The position numbers and the translations under genes are program-made. DNA of 62,426 nt from Clostridia bacterium (GTDB lineage Bacteria; Bacillota; Clostridia; Oscillospirales; UBA644), in contig JAGAPC010000039.1 in the NCBI GenBank assembly GCA_017623475.1, positions 1-62,426 on the forward strand, written 5' to 3'. Shown here in pieces: positions 6,363 to 58,666 of the stretch. The notes beneath the pieces were generated by a model. It ran no database searches and was not told the DNA's origin. It worked only from the letters and a program-made list of their open reading frames with translations. The number at the start of each line of letters is the position of its first letter. Within the stretch, counting starts at the first letter, position 1.

Positions 6363-6424
6363 GATATCATAAGAAATGCGTTTTTTTTCTTAAACTTCAA
6401 AAAACAAAAAAGGAGAGCGTTTTG

Positions 6425-9400
6425 ATGAGAAAGAAACGATGGCTTTGTCTATCAATGTTCCTCGTAGTGACCCTGCTGGGAAGCGGTATTATCCCAAATA
6501 TCTCCCAAATTATAGCGAAAGGCTCAGAGGTATTGACCATGGCACAGCAAAAGCAAAACGATTTTACTTACACCGAGGCGTTTGAAAATTACGACGCCAC
6601 CGACGTCCGTTATCGGGCGCAGATCGACCTGAATTGGAAATTTATTCAGGACGATAATATCGACGCGTCGGCGAAGGATTACGACGATTCTTCCTGGCGT
6701 CTTTTGAATCTGCCCCACGATTGGTCCATCGAAGGGGAATATTCCCAAGAGAATCCCTCCGGCGGCTCGGGCGGATATCTGCCCACCGGCATCGGCTGGT
6801 ATCGGAAAACTCTGACCATCCCCGAGGAGTGGAGAGACGGTCGGCAGGTTTCCATCGCCTTTGACGGCGTATTCTGTAACAGCACCGTTTACGTGGACGG
6901 AGAAAAGGTCGGCGGTCTGGAATACGGCTGGCTTTCCTTCTCCTGCGATATTACCGAGCAGGTTCAGGGCAAGGAATCGGTCGTGATCGCCGTTAAGGTG
7001 GACAACTCGGTTCAGCCCGCTGCCCGCTGGTACACCGGCTCCGGAATTTACAGCCACGTGTGGATCGTTTCTACCGAAGACGTACACGTTGCGGAAAACG
7101 GAACCTACGTAACCACCCTTGGGGACGACGAAGGCGTTCCCACCGGGGAAATGAACCTGGAAACGCTGGTGAAGAACGACGGCAACGCGGACGTTGACGT
7201 AACCGTTCGCTCCACCGTTTATCGGAAATCCGACGACGGACAGGTGGCGCAGGTCACAAGCCCCGCCGTCACCGTTCCCGCAAACGGAGATTTCACCGTG
7301 ACCCAGACGGCGCTGGTGGAACATCCTGAATTCTGGAATACCGAAACCCCCAACCTTTATTACGTGAAGACCGAGATTTTGGTGGGCGACGCCGTTGCCG
7401 ACGATTATCTCACCGAATTCGGCTTCCGTGTTATCACCTACGACGTGAACGGAATGTACCTCAACGGCGAGAATATCGAGCTGAAGGGCGTTTCCAATCA
7501 CTGGGCGCTGGGTGCCGTGGGTGCGGCGCAGACCACCAACATCATCCGTTATAAGATTCAGATGATGAAGGATATGGGCGTTAACTGTATCCGCACTACC
7601 CACAACGCCTGCCCCCCCGAATTCTATCAGCTGTGCGACGAAATGGGCATGATGGTGATGGACGAATTCTCCGAAGGAGAACGGGGCAAGACCGCCGGGG
7701 ACTACGGAACCCGTTGGTTTGCGGAATTGTGGGAGAGAGATATTGAGTATTGGGTTCGCCGGGATCGGAACCACCCCTCCGTCGTGGTTTGGTCCATCGG
7801 GAATGAAACCGGTAGTGATAACGACAATACCGGTATCAGCGCCCACATCAAGCAATTTGACACTACCCGTCCCACCACCGGCAGCGCCATTCACTACGGC
7901 GTTGATATCCCCGGTGCAAACGGACAGAGTGAGCCTGCCTCCTTTACCCAGCCGGTGGAAGATCTTCCCCTGATCGCCACCGAAGCACCCCACACCCACG
8001 CGGTGCGCGGCGTGTATCGGACCCAGACCTGGGCCCGCGGCAGCGCCACCCAATATCCCGGCGGAAATCATCTGCCCAACCTGAGCGACGTTGAAATTTT
8101 CAACTACGACTGGTCGGGCACCGCAACGCCGGCAAGAAGACTGCCCTCCGATTACGATAACGCCGTTTCCCAGATCTCCGTCCGCAGCCATTGGGCAAAG
8201 ACCCGTGACAACGATTGGCGGATCGGGGAATTCCGCTGGACGGGATTCGACTATTTGGGCGAAGCCAACTACGTGTTGGGCGGCTGGCCCTATCGGATGT
8301 TCCACAGCGGGGCGGTAGATACGGCGCTCTTTGAAAAGAGTATGTACTACCTCTATCAAAGTATGTGGACCGAAGAGCCCATGATTCACATCCTGCCCTC
8401 CTGGACGCACCCCACCATGGAAGAGGGCACGGTCGTTCCTGTTTGGGTTTACTCCAACTGTGAAACGGTGGAACTGTACCTGAACGGCGAATTGTTTGAA
8501 ACCGAAACCCGCGGTCCCGTCGATCAGCGGACCGATCTGGAAATTCAGTTTGACTTTGACGTTCCTTATACCCCCGGCACCATTACCGCCGTGGGCTACG
8601 ACGCAGACGGCAACGAGGTGATCCGCGATACCTACACCACCGCCGCCGCACCTTCTGCCCTTGCATTGGAAAATACCACCGGGGAAGAAATGCCCGCCGA
8701 TCCTTCTTATATCGGTCAGGTCACCGTATCGACCGTTGACAAGGACGGCAACTTCTACCCCTACGGCGAAAACCGTACCTACTACTACGTTTCCGGTCCT
8801 GCCTACATCAAGGCGGCGGACAACGGCTCTCCCATTGATACCGAAAGCCACGTCAATTACAACCGCAACGCCTTCATGGGACTTGCCAAGGTCTTCGTCG
8901 GCGCCACCCAGGATTCCGGCGATATCCTCTTTACCGCCGCGTCCATCGTCGGGGAAAAGCAGCAGCTGACCTCCGATCTGGTTTCCATTGACGTTCAGCA
9001 GCTGGCTCTGCGCGGAAATCCCGAAACGCAAACCTTTGAAATTTACTATACCACCGACGGCTCTGCCCCCGATAAGTCCTCCAATAAATATACGGAAGCC
9101 TTCGCCGTGGAATTGGGCACCACCGTCAAAGCCGCCGTTTACGTGGAAGGCAGCGATTCCGTCATGTTCCTGATGGAAGAGCGCTTTGCCAAGGACGAAG
9201 GCTTGTATTGGGAAGGCTCCAGCACCATCGAAAGAGAAGCCAACGTGTATCTTGCCCAGGATGCGGAAATTTCCGAAGATCTTGGTTACGTAAAATACGG
9301 CTTGTCCGAATATTACGTTGACTTCGGAGGTCGTTCCGGCTGGCTGGAATACACCGTAAACGCAGAAAAGGCAGGGGACTATTACGCCGCCTTCTGCTAC

Positions 9401-12400
9401 AACAACGGTTCGGGAACTGCCGGAAGCGCTTCCAAGACGATGGAGGTTCTGGTAAACGGCAACTCTACGGGCACTCACAAATTTATCGCCAACGGCTCCT
9501 GGACTACCTTCTGGTCTTACCATATCGTGAAGGTTACCCTGAACGAAGGGGAAAACAAGATCCGTCTTGATTCCGGCTCGGGTGTCGGCGCAAACTTCAA
9601 GGAGCTGCGCCTCTTCGCCGCCGACGATACCTACGTGGCGTCGGAAGCAAACATCCTGTCCGGGGACGACGCCATCGGCTCTTATCCCTCCGGATTTGAC
9701 GACGAAGGCGTTGACGTGGGGGCAAACGGCGGCTCGGTCACCTGGACGGTTACCGACAAGCCTGCCGGCATCTATAAGCTGAGCTTCTTCTATTCGACGC
9801 CCAACGGAAGCCTGCGGGAGGTTACCGCCTCGGTCAACGGCGTGATCCGCGGCTATTTCCCCGGGAAGAAGGTTTCTCCCAACTACGGTGCAAGCTGGGG
9901 CTACGAATCCATTGAGGTTTCCCTTGCTCCGGGACAAAACGTTATTACGATTTCCGTTCCCAGGGGCGGCACGCTGCTCGGCGCCGTTATCTTGGAAGAA
10001 AAATCCCTCTACATTTCCACGCCTTCCGTGATCGATTCCTCCTGCGTGGAAGATTCCCGCCTCTTCGCCGCCGGGGCTGATCCCCTCGTAATCGGCGGAA
10101 ACGCGGTTTCTCCCAACGCCGCCTGGGATATCGTCACCACCCTGGAAGGGGATTACTACCTGGTCAACCGTGACACCGGTATGCTGCTGGTCTCCGACGG
10201 TAAGGTAGTGGATCTCGCCAACGGCGAGGCTGCCGGCAACGCCCTGTGGAGACGCGCCGGAGAAGCTCTGAATTACGATTATCTGGTTCACGTCAAATCG
10301 GGCAAGATTCTTGCGCTGGACGAAAACGGCAAGCTGATCGTGGACGACGGCAAGAATTACGACGATTCCAATATGCGCACCAACCGTGGCTATTGGCGGA
10401 TTTCGGAGCTGCCCTCCGTGGAATTTGATTTCGCCGAGGACACCCCCGCCTTTAAGCGCACCACCGACAAACCCTTTACCGTTACCGCAACGGCGGAAAG
10501 CGTGACCTACGCCGTCCTTTCCGGACCTGCCACAGTAGATGCTCTGACCGGGCTCGTTACCCTGACGGGAGAATCCGGCACCGTTCTTTTGAGCGCAACG
10601 GCAACGGTGGGCAGTCAGAGCGTCAGCGCCGTTCACGCCATCCTCGTACAGTCCGTGGGCATCGGCACGACCAAACCTCAAGTTTATCTTGCCAAGGATG
10701 CGGTATTCTCTCCCACCTCCGGAAGCTTCAACTGTAACGAATCTACCAATTATTACGTAGATTTCGCCAACAATTACGGCTCCGTGGACTTTACCATCCG
10801 CGTTCCCGCCGCCGGGGAATATTACCTCGCCGTCGGATATGCGTCGGGCTCGAACAACCGTTATTTGAACGTGGAGGTCAATTCCACCCTCATCGGCACC
10901 TACCTGTGCCATAAGAACGGCGGCTGGACTGCAGATCCCTCCTATCATTTCGTGAAGGTCACCCTGAACGAAGGGGAGAACTCCGTCCGGATCATCCGTC
11001 CCGAATCCTACGGAATTCCTTGTATTACCGATATTACCGTATATCCCGCGGAGGAATGGATCTCTGCGCTGTATATGAACGTGGAAACCGACATGGTCGG
11101 CTCTGCTCTGACCCTGAAGGATTACGCCTCCGGTCTGGACGGCAAGGGCTTTGACAACAGCAACGCCGACGGCACCGTTACCTGGTATATGGACGTCCCC
11201 GTCAGCGGTACGTATAAGATTCAACTCCCCTACGCCACCTCCTCCGTGACCTCCAATGACGTTGCCGTTATCGTGGGCGGACAGGAAATTGCCAGACTGT
11301 GCGCAAACTCCGCGACCACCGGCGGTTACGGCGTCGCCTGGAGAATCGCCGAAACGCCCGAATTCCACTTGGATGCAGGAGAAAACATTCCCGTTACCCT
11401 TGCTTGGTACGGCGGAAGAAACCTGACCGGCTTCCGGATGGAGCTGATTTCCGCGGATCTCGATCCCATCAAGGTTGACGTCAACGCCACCGTCAAGCTG
11501 ACCGACAAAACCCTCAACGCCGAGGACTTCGAGTTCTCTCTCTTAAAGGACGGCGCGGTTCTTCAGACCGTCAAGAACGACGCGGACGGAAAGATCCTCT
11601 TCACGGATCTTGCCTTTGATCAGGTCGGCACTTATACCTACACCCTTCAGCAGACCAAGGGCGATTTGGCAGGCGTGACCTACGACGAAACGGTTTATAC
11701 CGTCGTCGTTACTGTCACCGATTTCAGCGGAATTCTCACCGCATCGGCGGACGTCGTTCCCTGCTTTACCAACGCCTACGCCATTCCCTTTGCCGAGGGC
11801 GAAATCGTCGATGGCAAATATCTCGTTTCCGGCGTCCCCACCGAAATGGGGCTCATCAAGATCGGCGACGATTACTACTACGCAGGCCCCAACGGTGTCC
11901 TGGTTGCCAATCAGAGATATTACGCCTGGAGACAGAACGAAAACTGCGACCTCGCCGAGGGCTGGTACGCCTTTGACGAAACCGGCAAGGTGGTCAAGGA
12001 CGGCATTTTCGACGGCATTTACTACGAAAACTACCTCCCCACCGAAAAGGGTCTGATTCAGCTCGGCAGCGATTATTACTACGCAGGCCCCAACGGCGTG
12101 TTGGTCGTCAATCAACGGTACTACGCGTGGAGGGTTGAAAACTGCGACCTGCCCGCGGCACACTACCGCTTTGACGAGTCCGGCAAGATGATCGGCTCTT
12201 CCGCGGAAGGGGAAATTGTCACCGTTGAAGGCGTCAAGTATTTCTACCGTTCCGGTAAGCCTACCGAAATGGGCTTATTTGAATATGAAGGGAAATACTA
12301 CGTCGCCCAATACGACGGCAAGATCATCACCGGCAAGTATTACGTCTGGAAGATTGACGAATCCGCAAGCGATATTGCCACCGGTTGGTATTATTTCGAT

Positions 12401-12679
12401 GCAGAATCCGGCGAAATGCTGAACGGCATCGCGGACGGTTACTACTACGTCAACGGTAAGCGCACCGAAATGGGTCTGTTCGAGTATAAAGGAAACTACT
12501 ACGTTGCCCAATACGACGGCAAGATTATTACCTCCGAAAACTACACCACCTACGGCGCGGGCAAGTATTACGTCTGGAAGATTCACGAATCTGCCAAGGG
12601 CGAAATTGCCGCAGGCTGGCATTTCTTCGACGAAACCGGCAAGCTGATTTTGGAGGACACGCAAAACGCCGCGGCGTAA
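6425..12679 (+). CDS. Secreted multimodular glycoside hydrolase family 2 protein
   Basis: This 2084-residue exported glycosidase starts with a signal peptide (basic MRKKR, hydrophobic to about 28). Sugar-binding and Ig-like GH2 domains cover about 45-330 and the TIM barrel about 335-640. Candidate catalytic residues are Glu461 (WSIGNE, acid/base) and Glu520 (IATEAPH, nucleophile). A DUF4982-like domain (about 665-740), a chitobiase-C-like Ig repeat (YYTTDGSAPD, about 875), and two pairs of CBM6/35-like jelly rolls (about 940-1195 and 1418-1675) follow, separated by a region with GDYYLVNRDTG. Then come a Spy0128-type pilin Ig domain (about 1678-1775) and four C-terminal repeats rich in Tyr and Gly (PTEMGLFEYEGKYY). 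There is no LPXTG motif; the repeats may anchor it to the wall. ATG at 6425 has AGGAG upstream; TTG at 6422 is an alternative. Beta-galactosidase-like activity is likely, but the exact substrate is unknown. Confidence 0.9.
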   Translation: MRKKRWLCLSMFLVVTLLGSGIIPNISQIIAKGSEVLTMAQQKQNDFTYTEAFENYDATDVRYRAQIDLNWKFIQDDNIDASAKDYDDSSWRLLNLPHDWSIEGEYSQENPSGGSGGYLPTGIGWYRKTLTIPEEWRDGRQVSIAFDGVFCNSTVYVDGEKVGGLEYGWLSFSCDITEQVQGKESVVIAVKVDNSVQPAARWYTGSGIYSHVWIVSTEDVHVAENGTYVTTLGDDEGVPTGEMNLETLVKNDGNADVDVTVRSTVYRKSDDGQVAQVTSPAVTVPANGDFTVTQTALVEHPEFWNTETPNLYYVKTEILVGDAVADDYLTEFGFRVITYDVNGMYLNGENIELKGVSNHWALGAVGAAQTTNIIRYKIQMMKDMGVNCIRTTHNACPPEFYQLCDEMGMMVMDEFSEGERGKTAGDYGTRWFAELWERDIEYWVRRDRNHPSVVVWSIGNETGSDNDNTGISAHIKQFDTTRPTTGSAIHYGVDIPGANGQSEPASFTQPVEDLPLIATEAPHTHAVRGVYRTQTWARGSATQYPGGNHLPNLSDVEIFNYDWSGTATPARRLPSDYDNAVSQISVRSHWAKTRDNDWRIGEFRWTGFDYLGEANYVLGGWPYRMFHSGAVDTALFEKSMYYLYQSMWTEEPMIHILPSWTHPTMEEGTVVPVWVYSNCETVELYLNGELFETETRGPVDQRTDLEIQFDFDVPYTPGTITAVGYDADGNEVIRDTYTTAAAPSALALENTTGEEMPADPSYIGQVTVSTVDKDGNFYPYGENRTYYYVSGPAYIKAADNGSPIDTESHVNYNRNAFMGLAKVFVGATQDSGDILFTAASIVGEKQQLTSDLVSIDVQQLALRGNPETQTFEIYYTTDGSAPDKSSNKYTEAFAVELGTTVKAAVYVEGSDSVMFLMEERFAKDEGLYWEGSSTIEREANVYLAQDAEISEDLGYVKYGLSEYYVDFGGRSGWLEYTVNAEKAGDYYAAFCYNNGSGTAGSASKTMEVLVNGNSTGTHKFIANGSWTTFWSYHIVKVTLNEGENKIRLDSGSGVGANFKELRLFAADDTYVASEANILSGDDAIGSYPSGFDDEGVDVGANGGSVTWTVTDKPAGIYKLSFFYSTPNGSLREVTASVNGVIRGYFPGKKVSPNYGASWGYESIEVSLAPGQNVITISVPRGGTLLGAVILEEKSLYISTPSVIDSSCVEDSRLFAAGADPLVIGGNAVSPNAAWDIVTTLEGDYYLVNRDTGMLLVSDGKVVDLANGEAAGNALWRRAGEALNYDYLVHVKSGKILALDENGKLIVDDGKNYDDSNMRTNRGYWRISELPSVEFDFAEDTPAFKRTTDKPFTVTATAESVTYAVLSGPATVDALTGLVTLTGESGTVLLSATATVGSQSVSAVHAILVQSVGIGTTKPQVYLAKDAVFSPTSGSFNCNESTNYYVDFANNYGSVDFTIRVPAAGEYYLAVGYASGSNNRYLNVEVNSTLIGTYLCHKNGGWTADPSYHFVKVTLNEGENSVRIIRPESYGIPCITDITVYPAEEWISALYMNVETDMVGSALTLKDYASGLDGKGFDNSNADGTVTWYMDVPVSGTYKIQLPYATSSVTSNDVAVIVGGQEIARLCANSATTGGYGVAWRIAETPEFHLDAGENIPVTLAWYGGRNLTGFRMELISADLDPIKVDVNATVKLTDKTLNAEDFEFSLLKDGAVLQTVKNDADGKILFTDLAFDQVGTYTYTLQQTKGDLAGVTYDETVYTVVVTVTDFSGILTASADVVPCFTNAYAIPFAEGEIVDGKYLVSGVPTEMGLIKIGDDYYYAGPNGVLVANQRYYAWRQNENCDLAEGWYAFDETGKVVKDGIFDGIYYENYLPTEKGLIQLGSDYYYAGPNGVLVVNQRYYAWRVENCDLPAAHYRFDESGKMIGSSAEGEIVTVEGVKYFYRSGKPTEMGLFEYEGKYYVAQYDGKIITGKYYVWKIDESASDIATGWYYFDAESGEMLNGIADGYYYVNGKRTEMGLFEYKGNYYVAQYDGKIITSENYTTYGAGKYYVWKIHESAKGEIAAGWHFFDETGKLILEDTQNAAA

Positions 12680-12710: not shown

Positions 12711-12736
12711 GGGAGGCACGCAATTGCGTGCCTCCC
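12711..12736. terminator. Perfect palindromic hairpin after GH2
   Basis: A 26-base perfect palindrome with half GGGAGGCACGCAA. A nearly identical copy (one base different at the centre) occurs at 12899-12924. It probably ends the GH2 transcript, although no long T tract follows. Confidence 0.6.
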
Positions 12737-12898: not shown

Positions 12899-12924
12899 GG
12901 GAGGCACGCAATCGCGTGCCTCCC
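12899..12924 (-). terminator. Second GGGAGGCACGC hairpin, before murQ end
   Basis: The arms match the 12711-12736 hairpin except for one central base. It lies 20 bases beyond the murQ stop on the minus strand and is followed on the plus strand by GGCGGTTTTTT, so it can act in both directions. Confidence 0.65.
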
Positions 12925-12943: not shown

Positions 12944-13765
12944 TCAGTTGCGTTCCTTGTGCCACGTTACGGCGTTGCGGATGTTCCAACCGTTGGCGTC
13001 CAGGGCGGTGACGGCGGCTTGCTCGTCACAGGAGAGGATGTCTTTCACGATACGGACGACTCTGCCCTTCAGTTTTACGTTGGAGGGGGAAAGGTTGATC
13101 ATCATGTTTTCGTAAACCTTGCCGGTTTTTGCCATAGCACAGGTGGTCAGGGTGTTCAACACGACCTTTTGCGCCGTGCCTGCCTTCAGTCGGGTGGATC
13201 CGGTCAGGATCTCTGCGCCGGTGTCGGTGTAGATCGCAATATCTGCCGCGTTCAAGATTTTCGTGTCGGGGTTGCAGCTGATGCCCACCGTGACGCAGCC
13301 CAGGGCTTTGGCGGTTTCCAACGCGCCCACCACGTAGGCGGCGTTGCCTGCGGCGGAGATCCCAACCAAAACGTCTCCCTGTTGGATTCCGTATTCGGAG
13401 ACGGCGAGAACGCCCATCTCATATTTATCTTCTTCGTTTTCTCCGGCGCGGAACATCCGTTCCTTGCCCCCGGCGATGATTCCGGTGACCAGGTCGTAAT
13501 CGACCCCGAAGGTGGGGGGACATTCTGCGGCGTCGAGAACTCCTAACCGCCCGGAGGTGCCTGCGCCGATGTAGAAGAGCCGATGTCCGCCCTCAAAGGC
13601 GGCGGCGATGGCGTCGATGGCTTTTGCGATGTCCGCGGCGGCGGCTTCTGCCGCTTTGACCGCCTCGTAGTTTGCGGAAATGACCAGCCTTGCCATCTCT
13701 TCGGTGGGCAAGCGATCAAAATTCATGCTTAAGGGATTGCGCATTTCGGTTTTTGGTAAGCTCAT
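12944..13765 (-). CDS. murQ: N-acetylmuramic acid 6-phosphate etherase
   Basis: The 273 residues form a single SIS (sugar isomerase) domain with the MurQ signatures NPLSMNFDRL at the start, FYIGAGTSGRLG (about 65-76) and DAAECPPTF, whose Glu is the catalytic acid/base position. LTGSTRLKAGTAQK follows in the second half. MurQ cleaves the D-lactyl ether of MurNAc-6-phosphate to give GlcNAc-6-phosphate in the cytoplasm during cell-wall recycling. It is somewhat shorter than the usual 295-300 residues at the C-terminus. Its start overlaps the stop of the upstream kinase by four bases, so the two are translationally coupled, which fits kinase product feeding etherase. Confidence 0.95.
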   Translation of the reverse strand: MSLPKTEMRNPLSMNFDRLPTEEMARLVISANYEAVKAAEAAAADIAKAIDAIAAAFEGGHRLFYIGAGTSGRLGVLDAAECPPTFGVDYDLVTGIIAGGKERMFRAGENEEDKYEMGVLAVSEYGIQQGDVLVGISAAGNAAYVVGALETAKALGCVTVGISCNPDTKILNAADIAIYTDTGAEILTGSTRLKAGTAQKVVLNTLTTCAMAKTGKVYENMMINLSPSNVKLKGRVVRIVKDILSCDEQAAVTALDANGWNIRNAVTWHKERN

Positions 13766-14904
13766 TGTTTCAATCCTCCGTACGTGTTACTGAAATTGTT
13801 GTAAAAATCCTCGGAGCATTTCCCCGCTTGGGGCTTGCACGCTTTTCGGCAAGCGCCGTAGATGGGGGGGAGCCCGGTTTGAAGTAAGGTTACGCTGCTG
13901 TATTTTTTGAGGTGGGATAAAACGACGTCTCCGTGATGCTCGAAAATTCCGCCGCTTGCCACCGCCACAGGCCGCGCTCCGTGGAGGGAAACGCCTGCGT
14001 TCAAAAGCCGCGCCAGGGCTTGGGCGGTTTCATCTACGATGCGGATTGCCCGCCGATCTCCCTGCTCGTACGCTTCAAAAACCGTGGTGGAAAAGCTTGC
14101 CACGTAGGGCTTGCCGCCTGCGTACAGGGCGTGAATGTGATCCCAAACCTTGAAGACCTGCATCCGTTTCCGAAGTAATTGCGTCAAAAGTGACGGGGGA
14201 AGCAGGAAATCCTCCTCCTCCAAGGCGGCGGCGATGGCGGATCTGCCCATATCGTAAGCGCTTCCCGCTTGATCGAACAAATATCCCCAGCCCCCCAGCC
14301 GAAGCACCTCGTCTCCCTTTCGGACGAAGACCACCGAGCCGGTGCCGCTGATGACCGCCATATCCGCGCCGTCCTCCATGGCAAGGAGGTTTAAGGCGTC
14401 GGTGCCGATCTGCACGGTCAGTTGAGGAAAGCGTTTTTTGATTTCTGCCGACAGGTTTTTTGCGTGATCTCCCGTGGTGATCCCCGCAATTCCGCAAAAG
14501 ATCCCCTTCACGCCGGGGAACGCCACCAGGGCTTCGGCAATTCCGTCGCAGATCAGCGCCGCGGACTTGGGAAAGCCGATATCGTTGGGGTTTGAGCCGG
14601 ATTTTACGATCCGCTTCAGTACCCGTCCGTCGGGGGAAACGACCGCAAATTCGGTCTTCGTGCCGCCCCCGTCCACCCCCAAAAACAGTTCTTCCTTTTG
14701 GGGACGCAGTAAATCGTCGATTAAAACCCCGAATTGGGAGGCGATGCGGATCAGATTATCCAAATCCGGCGGAGAAATGCCCCGTTCCCAGTTGGAAACC
14801 GCCTGACAGCTGACGTTCAGCCGTTGGGCAAATTCGCTTTGGGTCAGCCCCTGGGACGACCGCAGCTCCCGAATCTTTTTCCCAAGCAATTCCGTATCGA
14901 GCAT
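13762..14904 (-). CDS. XRE-type HTH fused to BadF/MurK-type amino-sugar kinase
   Basis: This is a two-domain protein of 380 residues. Residues 8-62 are an XRE helix-turn-helix (SQGLTQSEFAQRLNVSCQAV). Residues 74-360 are a BadF/BcrAD-type kinase with the nucleotide loop GVDGGGTKTE (76-85), a second loop ISGTGSVVFV, GGWGYLFDQAGSAYDMGR and SGGIF. Clostridial MurK, a MurNAc/GlcNAc kinase, belongs to this fold and works with MurQ, which overlaps the end of this gene. The kinase motifs look intact, so the protein may phosphorylate the sugar and also bind DNA, analogous to ROK repressors but built from different parts. ATG 14904 is preferred over upstream in-frame codons because AAAGGAC precedes it and the promoter (14932-14960) lies just upstream. 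Confidence 0.88.
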   Translation of the reverse strand: MLDTELLGKKIRELRSSQGLTQSEFAQRLNVSCQAVSNWERGISPPDLDNLIRIASQFGVLIDDLLRPQKEELFLGVDGGGTKTEFAVVSPDGRVLKRIVKSGSNPNDIGFPKSAALICDGIAEALVAFPGVKGIFCGIAGITTGDHAKNLSAEIKKRFPQLTVQIGTDALNLLAMEDGADMAVISGTGSVVFVRKGDEVLRLGGWGYLFDQAGSAYDMGRSAIAAALEEEDFLLPPSLLTQLLRKRMQVFKVWDHIHALYAGGKPYVASFSTTVFEAYEQGDRRAIRIVDETAQALARLLNAGVSLHGARPVAVASGGIFEHHGDVVLSHLKKYSSVTLLQTGLPPIYGACRKACKPQAGKCSEDFYNNFSNTYGGLKQ

Positions 14905-14931
14905 AAAACTTGTCCTTTCGGTTTTTTCTTT

Positions 14932-14960
14932 ATTATAACAAATAATAATTGAAGAGTCAA
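14932..14960 (-). promoter_or_regulatory. Promoter of HTH-kinase and murQ
   Basis: On the minus strand TTGACT, 17 bases, TATAAT. The spacer is filled by one copy of the 15-base direct repeat (14939-14953). Confidence 0.85.
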
Positions 14961-15005
14961 TCAATTTTTTCTTTAAAATCGTATTTTTATCAAGTAATAA
15001 TTGAA
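14939..15005. promoter_or_regulatory. Paired 15-bp direct repeats, candidate operator
   Basis: CAAATAATAATTGAA (14939-14953) and CAAGTAATAATTGAA (14991-15005) differ at one base. Their starts are 52 bases apart, about five helical turns. The first sits between the -35 and -10 boxes. A related motif on the opposite strand (TCAATTACTAC) lies at 16896-16906 at the start of the glycosidase transcript. The HTH of the kinase gene is the obvious candidate binder. Confidence 0.6.
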
Positions 15006-15020
15006 TTTTGAGCAAAAAAC

Positions 15021-15047
15021 CCCCGGACTTGTGGTTTCAGTCCGGGG
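15021..15047 (-). terminator. Terminator of the 15054-16877 glycosidase gene
   Basis: CCCCGGACT and AGTCCGGGG form a 9-bp stem. The minus-strand transcript continues into a run of U. Confidence 0.9.
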
Positions 15048-15053
15048 AAAGGT

Positions 15054-16877
15054 TTACTCTTCGGTTACGGAAAACAGGGCGGTGGCGTTTTCGGTCAGGG
15101 TAAATTGAAGGGTGTCGGAGACCTGCGCTTGGACGTCTGCGCCGAACACCGGCTGAATTTTAACCCGCTTCGGCAGGGTGATCGTCTTCGTTCCCTCGAC
15201 GGTGGAGTGATACCCCACGTAGCCGTTGCCCACGTAAACCACGTCGCCCTCTTCGGCATACAGATGAACGCCGTTTTCCTGCAAAAATCTGCGGATCTCT
15301 TCGGTGGAAAGGCTGAAATGCTCCGGGGTTGCGGCAAGGTAGGGGATGTTCATTTCTTCGCACAGGGCGATGGCTTTTTTGCCGGCTTCGGAGGGGGCGG
15401 GGAAGGGGAAGACGGCAACCTTATAGTTCTTCAACACCTCCGGGGCGTCTTCCACCATGCAGGAATCGTAGGGTGCGCCGGTGGTACCCATGGACGTGCG
15501 GGAGTAGATGATCCCCGGGGTCAATTCAAAGTGGGTGCTTAATTGGGGAGATTGGCTGAACAGGTTGGCGTATCCGCACTCGTCGGCGAAAAAGACCACC
15601 TCCGGACGCAAGGGGGATTGCTTGTTTTCCGGCTCTTTTTCGTAGATTTTCAGCATGGATTCCAACTCGTCCATCAAAAGCGGATCGTTGTACCAGCCGC
15701 CCCACATATCAAACCACCAGACGGCGGATGCCTTGGTCAGCTGGTGGGCAAAGCTTTTCCGCAGGGCTTCCCTTGAAAGCTCCGGGGTCGGGGGGCCCGA
15801 CCAGACGGAATTTTTGGTGTTGGTGGGATAGATGGATTCGGGGTATTCACCGGGGCGCGCCTGCTGGATGCCGGTGGTCAGATACGTGCGGATGTCACAT
15901 TCGATAAAGCACAATTTTCCGTGATGCTTGACCGAATCGACGGGGATCATGTCCGCCCAGTCGATGCCGAAGGCACGGTTGCAGGTGTAGGCGTTGGGGG
16001 ATGAGAAGAAATCCACGTTGGGGGAATCCAACAAGCGGCGCAAGCCGTGAGAGCCGAACAAAACCGACCGATTGCACTCAAAGGAATAACCGTAGAAGGC
16101 GCCGACGATCTGGGAATAATCGGTTTCTTCCTTGACCACCTTCGCAAAGTGATCCAGACTTTCCGCCACGCCCAAATTGCAGAACAGGGAATAGCGCTTG
16201 GCGTTTTCGTTGGTCTGACAAACCTGACCCTGATATAAAAAGTCTTCGTTTTTCGGAAGGGTTGCGCCGTTTTCTCCGTAGGTCTCCTTGACCCAGCGGC
16301 GGAAGTATTTTTCTGCGGCAGGGGCGAGACATCCGTTGAGATCGTGGCAAAACCACTCCTGGGTCTGACCGCCGCACAACTGCCAGCCGGCAACCCTGGG
16401 GGCGTAATCGGCGGCTTTTACCCGGTCGATAAAGCGTTTCAGTAATTTCGTGCCGTCTTCCCGGAATTTATCGGAAAACATGGCTTCCCGATAGCCTCCG
16501 AATTTCGTGGGGATTACCTCGTCCGGGTGCTCCGCCACCCACCACTTGGGCATACTGACGTAAACCCGGGGGAAGATGATGGCGTCGGGGCATTTTTTCA
16601 AAATTTTATGTACGGCGTCCTCAAATTCCGAATAATCCGGATGCTCCGGGTCTTCGTAAACCCCGACGTGGAAGGGGGTAAACCCGGTTTTACTGCTGTT
16701 GATCGGGGAGGTGGTAAAGGATGCGTTGACGAAGAAAATGCGGTATCCCTTTTCCAAAAAGTCCTCGTAACGGCTCCGTTCCTCAAAATAGGTGGTGTAC
16801 GCCATGGCGGCGACGGGCTTATCCTCCACCAAAAGAAGGGGTTTTCCGTTGTTTCTTTGAAGTCGGCTTGTTAACAT
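15054..16877 (-). CDS. Putative clan GH-A-like glycosidase (GH42-like), family unassigned
   Basis: The 607 residues have a barrel-like N-terminal two thirds (about 1-400), a Rossmann/amidotransferase-like region (about 420-530) and a short beta-rich tail (about 535-605), the order seen in GH42-type beta-galactosidases. Candidate catalytic acids are the Glu of GGQTQEWF (about 172) and the Glu of LCFIECDIRTYL (about 325). There is no signal peptide, so it acts inside the cell. It has its own promoter and terminator but shares a sequence motif with the HTH-kinase promoter, which suggests it releases an amino sugar or related monosaccharide. The family and substrate are uncertain. The start at 16877 has AGAGGAG upstream. 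Confidence 0.65.
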   Translation of the reverse strand: MLTSRLQRNNGKPLLLVEDKPVAAMAYTTYFEERSRYEDFLEKGYRIFFVNASFTTSPINSSKTGFTPFHVGVYEDPEHPDYSEFEDAVHKILKKCPDAIIFPRVYVSMPKWWVAEHPDEVIPTKFGGYREAMFSDKFREDGTKLLKRFIDRVKAADYAPRVAGWQLCGGQTQEWFCHDLNGCLAPAAEKYFRRWVKETYGENGATLPKNEDFLYQGQVCQTNENAKRYSLFCNLGVAESLDHFAKVVKEETDYSQIVGAFYGYSFECNRSVLFGSHGLRRLLDSPNVDFFSSPNAYTCNRAFGIDWADMIPVDSVKHHGKLCFIECDIRTYLTTGIQQARPGEYPESIYPTNTKNSVWSGPPTPELSREALRKSFAHQLTKASAVWWFDMWGGWYNDPLLMDELESMLKIYEKEPENKQSPLRPEVVFFADECGYANLFSQSPQLSTHFELTPGIIYSRTSMGTTGAPYDSCMVEDAPEVLKNYKVAVFPFPAPSEAGKKAIALCEEMNIPYLAATPEHFSLSTEEIRRFLQENGVHLYAEEGDVVYVGNGYVGYHSTVEGTKTITLPKRVKIQPVFGADVQAQVSDTLQFTLTENATALFSVTEE

Positions 16878-16895
16878 CTTGCAAAACTCCTCTTG

Positions 16896-16906
16896 TCAAT
16901 TACTAC
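16896..16906. promoter_or_regulatory. Operator-like TCAATTACTAC at the glycosidase transcript start
   Basis: TCAATTACTAC differs at one base from the complement of the direct repeats at 14939-15005. It lies just downstream of the -10 box, about at the transcription start. Confidence 0.45.
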
Positions 16907-16910
16907 CTTT

Positions 16911-16939
16911 ATTATATTATGTTTTTGGGGAAAAAGCAA
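16911..16939 (-). promoter_or_regulatory. Promoter of the glycosidase gene
   Basis: Minus strand TTGCTT, 17 bases, TATAAT, placed 34 bases before the ATG. Confidence 0.7.
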
Positions 16940-17005
16940 ACAATTTGTAATTGAAAAAAATACAGGAAACAACGGGTGGTTGAATCCTGTATTTCCATTG
17001 ATGAT

Positions 17006-17406: not shown

Positions 17407-17712
17407 TTAATAAAGCAGATCCAACACTTTGGCTTTGGGTTGAACTCCAACGGTCTGTCCGATGACGGCGCCGTTTTTCAGGGCAACCAGCGTCGGGATC
17501 GACGAGATGCCGAACCGTTGCGCCAATTCCGGCTCTTCGTCCACGTTGACCTTGCCTACCAGAATATCCGGGTTGTCCCGGGCGATTTCTTCCACGGTGG
17601 GCGCCATCATTCGGCAGGGACCGCACCAAACCGCCCAAAAGTCCAAAAGCACGGGTTTTTCGCTCTTCGCGACCAATTCGTCGTAATTTTCCTTCGTGAT
17701 AATCTGTACCAT
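17407..17712 (-). CDS. trxA: Thioredoxin
   Basis: A 101-residue classical thioredoxin with active-site WCGPC (Cys30 and Cys33), VDEEPELAQRFGISSIPTL including the conserved cis-Pro, and the closing Gly-rich strand. It reduces protein disulfides in the cytoplasm. ATG 17712 is chosen because AAAGGACG precedes it and the protein then begins at the usual family position. The FTR-like gene ends 13 bases upstream in the same transcript, so its electrons may come from reduced ferredoxin through that partner rather than from NADPH. Confidence 0.96.
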   Translation of the reverse strand: MVQIITKENYDELVAKSEKPVLLDFWAVWCGPCRMMAPTVEEIARDNPDILVGKVNVDEEPELAQRFGISSIPTLVALKNGAVIGQTVGVQPKAKVLDLLY

Positions 17713-17725
17713 ACGAAACGTCCTT

Positions 17726-17926
17726 TCAATCCTTTGATTTGTAGTATAAAAGGCAGTGGCAGTATCCTTCAAATTCCGGATCGGCGATCTGATCCCGAAA
17801 TTCTTTGCACATACACTTGTTTTCTTCGGTTTTTTCCAACCGGCAGGGGCAATATCCGCCCTTTGCCTTCAGACCTTCTTTGATCTGGGCAACGATTTGC
17901 TTGTCTTCATTCAAACGAACCGCCAT
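17726..17926 (-). CDS. Ferredoxin:thioredoxin reductase catalytic-chain-like protein
   Basis: This 66-residue protein has three CxC pairs: CPC (26-28), CMC (38-40) and CHC (56-58). This is the cysteine inventory of the FTR catalytic chain, where four cysteines hold a 4Fe-4S cluster and two form the redox-active disulfide. The spacing differs from plant FTR (a shorter first gap and a longer second gap), and the chain is short. It is directly upstream of thioredoxin in the same operon, which supports a role in reducing that thioredoxin from ferredoxin. No variable (alpha) chain gene is adjacent. The start at 17926 has AGAGGTG upstream. Confidence 0.85.
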   Translation of the reverse strand: MAVRLNEDKQIVAQIKEGLKAKGGYCPCRLEKTEENKCMCKEFRDQIADPEFEGYCHCLLYYKSKD

Positions 17927-17977: not shown

Positions 17978-18565
17978 TTAACTCTTCATGCCTGCCCACA
18001 GGAATACGATGATCTGTGCGGGGATTCCGATGACGAAAATCAGCCAGATATTCAGCCCCGCGGCGAAAAAGACGGTAAAGAAGGCGCACGCCAAAAGCGA
18101 CCAGATCAGCACCGAGACGGTGGTAAACAACCAGCGCTTGCCCCACCACAGGGCGCTGAACACCAAAAGCACGATGCAGCAGACGGGGACGGCGGCGAGG
18201 AACACCACCCACGACCAGGACGGCACGGACGCCACGAATCCCAGGGAGAAATAGACGATAGACGCGATGAGCCACACGGTAACTGCCGAAATGCCGGTGA
18301 TCATCGCCCGATTGCGGCGCTTCCGCTTCGAGACCGGAACGGCGGCAGGCTCGTGATCCTGCGTCAGCATATAATCTACGGTAACCTCAAACAGATCCGC
18401 GATCTGCTTTAAGATGGTTACGTCGGGCAACGATTCGCCCCGTTCCCATTTGGATACGGCTTTGTCCGAATAGTTCAGCCGTTCTGCCAGTTCCAGCTGG
18501 GTCCAGCCCTTTTTCTTGCGCAGTGCCGCAAGATTTTCGGCAAAAATCGGTTTTAAATCGGTCAT
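17978..18565 (-). CDS. Membrane-anchored XRE-family regulator
   Basis: The 195 residues have an XRE helix-turn-helix at about 8-62 (GWTQLELAERLNYSDKAV, then WERGESLPDV), a basic linker (SKRKRRNR), and four predicted hydrophobic helices in the C-terminal half. ATG 18565 is chosen because AAAGGAG lies at the right distance. The gene is transcribed from a consensus promoter that is bracketed by two TCTAC-N5-GTAGA palindromes, which suggests autoregulation and control of the divergent degV gene. In the family, such HTH-plus-membrane proteins often respond to envelope stress. The signal here is unknown. Confidence 0.85.
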   Translation of the reverse strand: MTDLKPIFAENLAALRKKKGWTQLELAERLNYSDKAVSKWERGESLPDVTILKQIADLFEVTVDYMLTQDHEPAAVPVSKRKRRNRAMITGISAVTVWLIASIVYFSLGFVASVPSWSWVVFLAAVPVCCIVLLVFSALWWGKRWLFTTVSVLIWSLLACAFFTVFFAAGLNIWLIFVIGIPAQIIVFLWAGMKS

Positions 18566-18598
18566 GGCTTCTTCTCCTTTCGGGGGAAGGGGTGGGAT

Positions 18599-18613
18599 TC
18601 TACCTGCAGTAGA
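18599..18613. promoter_or_regulatory. TCTAC-N5-GTAGA operator, site 1
   Basis: TCTAC-CTGCA-GTAGA lies in the 5' leader of the XRE gene, about 34 bases before its ATG. The half sites are identical to site 2 at 18773-18787. Confidence 0.65.
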
Positions 18614-18739
18614 GTTGCAAAATATCGATGGTTTCGTTTGCAAAAAACGGTTGATTGGAGAAAAATAAATTCTCCCGTCCGTTCAAAGGGCGGCTTGCTC
18701 CGTCGAAATCTGTCGGAGGGAAAATCCGTTCTTTTCCTT

Positions 18740-57229: not shown

Positions 57230-58666
57230 TTAACACTGTTTCATCAGGCGCAGATAAAATTCCACCGCACGTTTGACGGCGTCAAGGCGGATGCGCTCGT
57301 TGTTGCCGTGGATGGTTGCCCGTTCCTCGGCGGTCAGATCCATGGCGGAGAAGCGATAGACCTTGTCGGAAATTCTGCCGTAGTGTCGGCAGTCGGAGCA
57401 TTGAACCATCAGATAAGGCGCTACGAGGCAGCCCTTCCAGGTTTCTGCAACGGCTTTTTCGACCTTTCTCCAGGCGTCGCAGTCGGTTTGGGAGATTCGG
57501 CTGGGGTTCATGTGGCTTCCCACGGTGACGGTGACGGTTTCATCGTCGATGATCTTTTACAGCCGTGCCTTTGCCGATTCCACCGTGTCCATGGGATTCA
57601 GCCGCAGATTTGCCACCATCGTTGCCTGGGGCGGAATGACGTTGGGCGCCGCGCTTCCTTCCATTTGGGTAAAGGCGACGGTGGTGCGCAGCAGGGCGTT
57701 GATTTCGCCCCCGGATTTTTTGCCCAAAAGATCCAAAACACCCTTGAAAATACCGAAATTGGCAAAGATGATTTTATACAAAAAGGTAGAGTGCCGTCCC
57801 AAGGTGTCAAACATTTCCGCGGCGGGCTTGGTCACGTGCATGGGGAAGGGATTTGCCTCCAATTTACAGCAAGCCTTCGACAAAATGCCCACGGGCGTGT
57901 GGGGCTTGGGCGCGGAGGCGTGACCTCCCTGGGATTTGACGGTGAAAATTGCGTTCATCATGCCCTTTTCCGCAATCCCGACCACGCCGCAGGGGGCTTT
58001 GACCCCGGGGAAGACGTTTTCGACCACGCCGCCCCCTTCATCGACCACCAGCCCCAGATCGATCTTCCGTTCTTCGAACCAATCCACGATGTTGGACGCG
58101 CCTTTTCCGTTGATTTCTTCTCCGCCGGAAAAGGCGAAGTAAATATCGTTTTCGGGAACGAATCCTTTGGAAATCAAGGTGTCTGCCGCAGTCAGTACGG
58201 CGTTCATGGTTACCTTGGTGTCCAACGTTCCGCGTCCCCACAAAACTCCGTTGTCAATCTCTCCGCAGAAGGGATCCTTTTCCCATTGATCCTCGTTGAC
58301 CGGCACCACGTCGTAATGCGCCATCATCACCGAGGGATGATCGTGGCTCGTTCCCTCCCACTTAAAAAGCAGCGCCCGGTCGGGGAGACGGTCGAAGGAG
58401 CAGACCCGAAAGACCTCCGGGTACAGCTGGGGCAAAAGTCCGATGAGCTTTTCAAATTCTTCGTCGTCTTCCTTGGACGGATCGTAATAAGAAACGGTTT
58501 TGCACCGCACCAGCTGTTGCAGGGAAGCGATCGCTCGTTCTCCGTCGAATTCCACCGGCTCGGATTCGGTCACCGGAAAGGTTTTGGGACGAAACGCCGC
58601 CGCCCGAAGGAGAATGACTGCTAAAAATACGGTAACCAGCCCTAAAATGATGTAAAGAATAATCAT
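57230..58666 (-). pseudogene. M20 peptidase (PM20D1/CPS1-like) with an in-frame TAA
   Basis: An N-terminal anchor helix (about 1-25) precedes an M20 metallopeptidase: MMAHYDVVPV (metal His and Asp), GRGTLDTK, FSGGEEINGKG (catalytic and metal Glu), VVDEGGGV, a dimerisation domain with SQGGHASAP, and a late VQCSDCRHYGR (metal His). Codon 370 is TAA (57557-57559), yet the same frame continues without other stops for 108 codons to 57230 with family-typical sequence. A single base change (AAA to TAA) explains it. The truncated product would lack the last metal His. The expected substrate is a dipeptide or N-acyl amino acid. Two paired membrane proteins precede it in the transcript. Confidence 0.85.

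Follow-up and report, generated by a model that had tools for sequence, protein, structure and literature searches.

The 62,426-nucleotide stretch analyzed here (hereafter the window) is the forward strand of contig JAGAPC010000039.1, positions 1 to 62,426, from assembly GCA_017623475.1 of a gut-dwelling Clostridia bacterium (Oscillospirales; UBA644), and it carries on its minus strand a gene for a helix-turn-helix (HTH) domain fused to a predicted sugar kinase, a protein that may be both enzyme and regulator of its own pathway. Read 5' to 3' on that strand, the locus comprises a putative glycosidase gene (P0003, 607 amino acids; 16877-15054), a terminator-like hairpin followed by a T-run (15047-15021; CCCCGGACT...AGTCCGGGG TTTTTT) that, as read from the sequence, separates the glycosidase and kinase transcripts, the HTH-kinase fusion (P0001, 380 amino acids; 14904-13762), and murQ (273 amino acids; 13765-12944). 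The fusion is a single open reading frame (ORF) that begins with ATG at 14904 and is preceded by AAAGGA. The product of murQ is matched over its full length by profiles of N-acetylmuramic acid 6-phosphate (MurNAc-6-P) etherase, with 332.8 bits against the MurNAc-6-P etherase model PRK05441 (cut-off 168) and 300.0 bits against TIGR00274, slightly below the cut-off of 302. As the initial annotation of this DNA had recorded, the kinase stop codon (TGA, 13762-13764) overlaps the murQ start codon (ATG, 13763-13765), here as ATGA.

The two halves of P0001 are assigned by separate profiles, confirming the earlier proposal that an XRE-type HTH had been joined to a BadF/MurK-type kinase. The XRE/HTH_3 domain spans residues ~8-67 (14704..14883, minus strand), with an HTH_3 match over residues 11-65 (E 3.3e-15; 56.3 bits against a cut-off of 23) and a Q-type recognition helix, SCQAVSNWERG (SxQAVSNWERG type), at residues 32-42. 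After a linker of ~5 residues to the first kinase strand, the BadF/NagK/MurK-type kinase domain occupies residues ~72-325 (13930..14691, minus strand), as indicated by profile, alignment, and Foldseek; the BcrAD_BadFG profile (PF01869) matches residues 75-325 (E 8.1e-24; 85 bits against a cut-off of 31.5). The kinase had been called apparently intact, and its motifs are all present: DGGGTKT, the predicted catalytic base Asp169 (codon 14398..14400, minus strand), GTG(S), and GG. Asp169 is invariant in 38 of 38 aligned homologs and is equivalent to D95, the catalytic base of Tannerella forsythia MurK (PMC10465942). Across all 24 fused relatives, no variation is seen in either aspartate (that of DGGGTKT and the catalytic one), in GTG, or in the first G of GG, and this invariance argues for P0001 being a working kinase. 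The nearest solved relative by sequence is the N-acetylmuramic acid (MurNAc)/N-acetylglucosamine (GlcNAc) kinase 8zo3 (MurK of Clostridium acetobutylicum), annotated as acting on both sugars. It is also the top Foldseek match of the P0001 AlphaFold model (E 2.1e-13), a search that returned ROK repressors as well; the query was a low-confidence model, built from three sequences with a predicted local distance difference test (pLDDT) score of 57, and supports the overall kinase fold only. A small residue of P0001, T168, aligns with T94 of T. forsythia MurK, which leaves space for the lactyl group of MurNAc (PMC10465942).

Upstream of the fusion, the initial annotation had pointed to two 15-bp direct repeats with one mismatch, 52 bp apart, one of them between the -35 and -10 boxes. 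Those repeats, TTCAATTATTATTTG (14939-14953) and TTCAATTATTACTTG (14991-15005) on the minus strand, are as described, 52 bp from start to start, but each is an imperfect dyad of the form TCAA-N7-TTGA with a third copy in between, so that they are really two members of a three-dyad array. The predicted operators, all on the minus strand, are O1 (TCAATTATTACTTGA, 14990..15004), centered at about -72 and 44 bp upstream of the -35 box; O2 (TAAAGAAAAAATTGA, 14961..14975), centered at about -43 and directly adjoining the -35 box; and O3 (TCAATTATTATTTGT, 14938..14952), centered at about -20 within the spacer. The promoter itself has a -35 box TTGACT (14955..14960, minus strand) and a -10 box TATAAT (14932..14937, minus strand) with a 17-bp spacer, and the operator spacings are 29 bp (O1-O2) and 23 bp (O2-O3).

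Phylogenetic footprinting indicates that this array has been retained. TCAAN7TTGA occurs upstream of the kinase in five of six close relatives where 0.10 were expected (0 of 2000 shuffles), and in a held-out set (L098-L105) retrieved after the motif had been fixed, CAAN7TTG was found within 125 bp in five of eight cases, against 0.49 expected (0 of 3000 shuffles). When the upstream regions of eight species (protein identity 41-100%) were aligned without gaps on the first dyad, each of them showed a second dyad at +29, and most showed a third at +52 (or, in two species, +53), O3 being absent from L038; mean dyad scores were 7.75, 7.0, and 5.1 of 8 at positions 0, +29, and +52, and the highest value reached by 1000 shuffles was 4.62. 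One sequence (L106) was excluded from the footprint due to an in-frame stop. The distance from O1 to the downstream -35 box is 42-46 bp in clades A and B of the fusions (scripted values differ for L040 and L099, for which the alignment also gives 44 bp), and in the more distant fusions of clade B it takes the form CAAC-N5-GTTG. In two genomes the kinase gene belongs to a longer operon, and there the operon promoter carries the dyad, as TCAACTTGGGGTTGA in genome G043 and as TCAAGCGCAGCTTGA in genome G417, the operon of which includes nagA. Two other close matches to the repeat (L082 and L083) were dropped as they fall within coding sequence. Among 18 fusions with a Q-type helix, the combination of a retained HTH and a lost motif, which the initial annotation had named as grounds for abandoning its proposal, was seen only in L101, which lacks a site.

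The identity of one operator base follows that of one residue in the recognition helix. In all nine fusions with K at residue 38, operator base 5 is C and base 11 is G, while none of the ten with N, A, S, or Q at this residue has C at base 5, such that the association is consistent in 19 of 19 fusions; P0001 itself carries N38. Among the 17 fusions with Q34, Fisher's test gives p = 4e-5, a statistic that ignores shared ancestry, and in clade C the pair L062 (K38, C:G) and L045 (Q38, T:A) provides an independent contrast. The helix is changed in all six clade C fusions, with Q34 replaced by K, and the two dyads that could be seen there read TCTA-N7-TAGA rather than TCAA; a changed dyad accompanies the changed helix in only two of the six. 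The conserved dyads and the covariation at residue 38 are indirect indications that the HTH may bind the short dyad.

The same arrangement recurs at the glycosidase promoter, for which the initial annotation had highlighted a near-copy of the repeat, TCAATTACTAC, at the transcript start. That sequence is present (16896..16906, plus strand) and spans the predicted start, but it is only a half-site, scoring 5/8 against the dyad, and was rejected as the main operator for that reason; it has no conserved counterpart. The main predicted operators are instead O1' (TCAACCACCCGTTGT, 16969..16983, minus strand) and O2' (TCAATTACAAATTGT, 16940..16954, minus strand), which are 29 bp apart; O2' abuts the -35 box. 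Their register relative to the -35 box (44 and 15 bp, respectively) is identical to that at the kinase promoter. The promoter boxes are TTGCTT (16934..16939, minus strand) and TATAAT (16911..16916, minus strand). The product, P0003, is a putative glycosidase with a weak GH42 assignment and no obvious signal peptide: the GH42 profile matches partially (residues 104-202; 25.4 bits against a cut-off of 21), the best match to PDB profiles is weak (E 0.0013), and the single-protein AlphaFold model is of low confidence (pLDDT 40).

Pattern scans of the 1.57-Mb genome were used to look for the members of the regulon. A scan for the single dyad TCAAN7TTGW was unspecific, with ~200 strand-wise matches and a reversed control that was not composition-matched, and was set aside in favor of the paired pattern TCAAN7TTG-N15-TCAAN7TTG with at most one mismatch. 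The paired pattern occurs at three places: the kinase promoter, the glycosidase promoter (zero mismatches), and a coding site within an ORF (57734-57776). When applied to seven other genomes, the pattern marks the kinase promoter in six and yields three stray matches, two inside ORFs of at least 650 amino acids and one in a 179-codon open frame. The reversed paired pattern gave two matches in the genome of the window and a single match in one further genome, the remaining genomes giving none. These results point to a regulon of two promoters, those of kinase-murQ and of the glycosidase, and footprinting, covariation, and the paired-site scan jointly lend weight to the earlier suggestion that the fusion controls both. 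It is conceivable that the repeats arose by chance in AT-rich DNA and that the HTH is a vestige or acts at other sites, as the abundance of single dyads would allow; yet the register kept in eight species, the confirmation in the held-out set, the covariation, and the scarcity of paired sites make this extremely improbable.

A simpler possibility is that P0001 is a constitutive or concentration-dependent autorepressor, the HTH of which merely holds the enzyme level constant with no effect of sugar on DNA binding. Many XRE proteins merely autoregulate, and the autoregulatory site is conserved here. However, the same operator is found at a second target gene, dyads stand at the promoters of whole operons that contain nagA or a DUF6259 protein, the active site is strictly conserved in the fusions, and kinase relatives close strongly on sugar, so that pure autorepression is considered decidedly unlikely.

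The distribution of the fusion provides further context. It was found in four of five genomes of the genus and, at E 1e-20, in none of the remaining 15 genomes of the family. Matches were recovered from 68 of 394 sampled genomes of the order, where both fused and unfused kinases occur and often precede murQ, and a phylum sample of 398 genomes added one match (G533), in which the alignment covered just residues 50-373. At least three changes of fusion state, two of them forced by well-supported branches, are required on a tree comprising 23 fused and 14 unfused kinase domains, which implies that the fusion is old and that its loss or gain happened repeatedly. Immediately 3' of the kinase lies murQ in nearly all of the fusions inspected. 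The glycosidase ortholog is located within the kinase-murQ operon in four genomes (G004, G385, G055, and G449), and this both ties the glycosidase independently to the kinase pathway and suggests that the two are commonly controlled together. The ortholog lies elsewhere in G001 and G002 (after nagA in G002) with no dyad upstream, and it is therefore not predicted to belong to the regulon in these genomes. Other enzymes are found in comparable positions. A protein of ~580 amino acids, a candidate amino-sugar salvage enzyme, recurs within the kinase-murQ operons of three genomes (L071:9902-11683, L079:8654-10399, and L152:2378-4108); in L152 it has a GH67-like N-terminus and a match to DUF4838 (E 2e-89). 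A DUF6259 protein (L078:7664-9712) is encoded first in an operon with a fused kinase and murQ, downstream of an TCAACTTGGGGTTGA dyad. In G417 (L150:2484-7538), a fused kinase without murQ comes last in an operon with nagA-like, Gfo/Idh-type, and isomerase-type genes and is preceded by nagA, with the dyad at 7638; the regulator of that genome may serve a different amino-sugar path.

The interpretation favored here, with a probability of roughly 0.6, is that P0001 is a sugar kinase that doubles as a one-component regulator, repressing the kinase-murQ and glycosidase promoters until an amino sugar arrives. Dimers would bind TCAA-N7-TTGA dyads through the XRE HTH at O1, O2, and O3 in front of kinase-murQ and at O1' and O2' in front of the glycosidase gene, and both promoters would most likely be kept down until the cytoplasm receives an amino sugar, either MurNAc or perhaps GlcNAc. 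Upon binding MurNAc, T. forsythia MurK closes with an N-lobe shift of 4.5-6.9 Å, and the two N-lobes of the dimer approach each other (PMC10465942). In P0001, sugar might likewise close the kinase cleft and swing the N-terminal lobes, tied to the HTHs by ~5 residues, such that the HTH pair would no longer fit the dyad and DNA would be released. The released enzyme would then phosphorylate the sugar, MurQ would remove the lactyl ether, and, once the sugar had been consumed, the protein would re-open and rebind DNA.

The effector in such a scheme could differ from MurNAc: it might be the product or another amino-sugar phosphate, as GlcNAc-6-phosphate is for NagC, or the sugar might be GlcNAc or else a disaccharide substrate of the glycosidase. 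The position of nagA beside the kinase in G417 and beside the glycosidase in G002, and the annotation of 8zo3 for both sugars, are consistent with this variant, which is nonetheless judged rather unlikely given that murQ follows the kinase directly in nearly all fusions inspected and that T168 is small at the lactyl-accommodating position.

The weakest step of the favored scheme is the sign of regulation. Repression is preferred because the promoters are near-consensus and O3 lies inside the spacer. Several observations weigh against the scheme. O1, near -72 and at a near-fixed distance, also occupies a classic activator position, clade B promoters carry O1 alone, and the glycosidase promoter combines a weak -35 box with the lack of an O3, as is often the case in activated promoters. 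Moreover, a terminator-like hairpin has O1' in its loop, and the symmetry of O1' may partly stem from this; the region upstream of L101 has no recognizable site; four of six clade C promoters have no clear dyad; and one of 13 unfused homologs (L061) has TCAAN7TTGA upstream, against 0.04 expected over the 13. The poor AlphaFold model of P0001 (pLDDT 57) offers no support for the geometry between HTH and lobe. As a separate observation, another HTH protein might bind at the L061 site.

These points invite comparison with lambda cI at PRM. P0001 could be a dual autoregulator in which O1 and O2 activate, O3 shuts the promoter at high protein levels, and sugar tunes the response, with the glycosidase purely activated. 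The three sites are indeed graded (O1 > O2 > O3), the distance from O1 to the promoter is fixed even where O1 stands alone, the glycosidase -35 box TTGCTT is weak, and the centers at about -72, -43, and -20 resemble the OR1-OR2-OR3 arrangement at PRM. The kinase -35 and -10 boxes, however, are near-perfect (12/12 in L009, L010, and L102) and would need no activator, and the O1-O2 spacing is 29 bp, not 24; a dual role of this kind is accordingly judged unlikely. Phage phi29 p4 is described as repressing from about -71 by over-stabilizing polymerase. The constant position of O1 near -72, the clade B promoters with a single site, and the weak glycosidase -35 box would be compatible with activation of the lambda PRM kind or with p4-like repression from about -71.

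Judged by sequence profiles, P0001 is a member of the BadF/MurK family by its kinase half and of the XRE family by its DNA-binding half. It shares with MurK/NAGK kinases (PF01869; 8zo3 and T. forsythia MurK) the kinase domain, the catalytic Asp, the phosphate and adenosine motifs, and the murQ operon, but the described MurK/NAGK enzymes stand alone, whereas P0001 adds an N-terminal XRE HTH and predicted operators at the promoter. ROK repressors (NagC, Mlc, and Lmo0178) resemble it in joining an HTH to an ASKHA sugar-kinase fold, in controlling amino-sugar genes, and in responding to sugar, a response predicted here for P0001. Assignment of P0001 to the ROK family (PF00480) was rejected, as the ROK match covers 27 residues with 18.4 bits (cut-off 22.9) and the HTH is of the HTH_3 type. 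ROK repressors are generally no longer active as kinases; by contrast, the motifs of P0001 are intact. The initial annotation had spoken of a ROK-like logic built from unrelated domains, which holds for the HTH but not wholly for the kinase half, because the ASKHA fold is common to the BadF and ROK kinases.

Enzyme-repressors of other kinds offer further parallels. NadR joins an N-terminal HTH to nicotinamide mononucleotide adenylyltransferase and ribosyl-nicotinamide kinase and acts as an enzyme-repressor of its own pathway, with other enzymes, another ligand, and another pathway than those of P0001. The likeness to lambda cI at OR1-OR2-OR3 extends to the XRE-type HTH, the three graded dyads, the O2-O3 spacing of 23 bp, and an operator within the spacer; P0001 differs in its O1-O2 spacing of 29 bp, in having a metabolic enzyme in place of the cI C-terminal domain, and in the lack of a divergent promoter. 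MurR/RpiR-type regulators of murQ likewise provide local control of MurNAc-6-P use, but their SIS-domain sensor is separate from the kinase and they have no sequence relation to P0001. In BzdR, an XRE HTH is joined to an inactive shikimate-kinase-like domain that senses benzoyl-CoA, and three operator regions lie at the target promoter (PMC3602430). P0001 is similar in its N-terminal XRE HTH on a kinase-fold sensor and in its three operator regions, but the kinase folds are unrelated, and P0001 is a natural fusion with intact motifs and its own pathway as predicted target. Classification as a BzdR-type protein was rejected, as PRK08154 matches residues 6-71 (the HTH) only, with 21.3 bits against 204. 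An engineered chimera, Q1, is kinase and repressor in one (PMC3602430), and P0001 would be its natural counterpart if an active kinase worked as a PRM-like three-operator switch, activating from O1 and O2 and repressing from O3, in which turnover of its own inducer resets the promoter, a scenario regarded as quite unlikely. By analogy, P0001 would work like ROK repressors and BzdR, and it is judged to be a variant of the known principle of enzyme-repressor fusion exemplified by ROK, BzdR, and NadR. No description of HTH-BadF regulators was found in the literature searched, which covered few subscription journals.

Several neighboring features of the window were also recorded. Downstream of murQ are two near-identical 26-bp hairpins, GGGAGGCACGCAATYGCGTGCCTCCC, at 12711-12736 and 12899-12924 (188 bp apart), where none were expected by chance; these may be the bounds of a small repeated element or terminators. 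Convergent to the murQ operon, positions 6422-12679 encode a 2085-amino acid GH2 enzyme with CBM35, FctA-like, and choline-binding repeats, a large secreted glycosidase beside the sugar operon. On the other side of the locus, a small protein like the catalytic chain of ferredoxin-thioredoxin reductase (17726-17926; FeThRed_B, E 2.8e-5) adjoins a thioredoxin gene (17407-17772), and a second XRE HTH protein (17978-18643; HTH_3, E 4e-16) is joined to a membrane-protein-like region.

These observations would extend the small set of enzymes with a second role as regulators of their own pathways by a class that has the BadF/MurK kinase fold. Because the kinase site looks fully preserved, unlike those of ROK repressors and BzdR, a single protein would combine the roles of sensor, first enzyme, and switch. 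The predicted operators and the rule that relates helix to base (K38 with C:G at base 5) may allow regulons to be read in uncultured gut Clostridia, and the findings would link a group of little-known glycosidases and DUF4838 and DUF6259 proteins to the salvage of cell-wall amino sugars.

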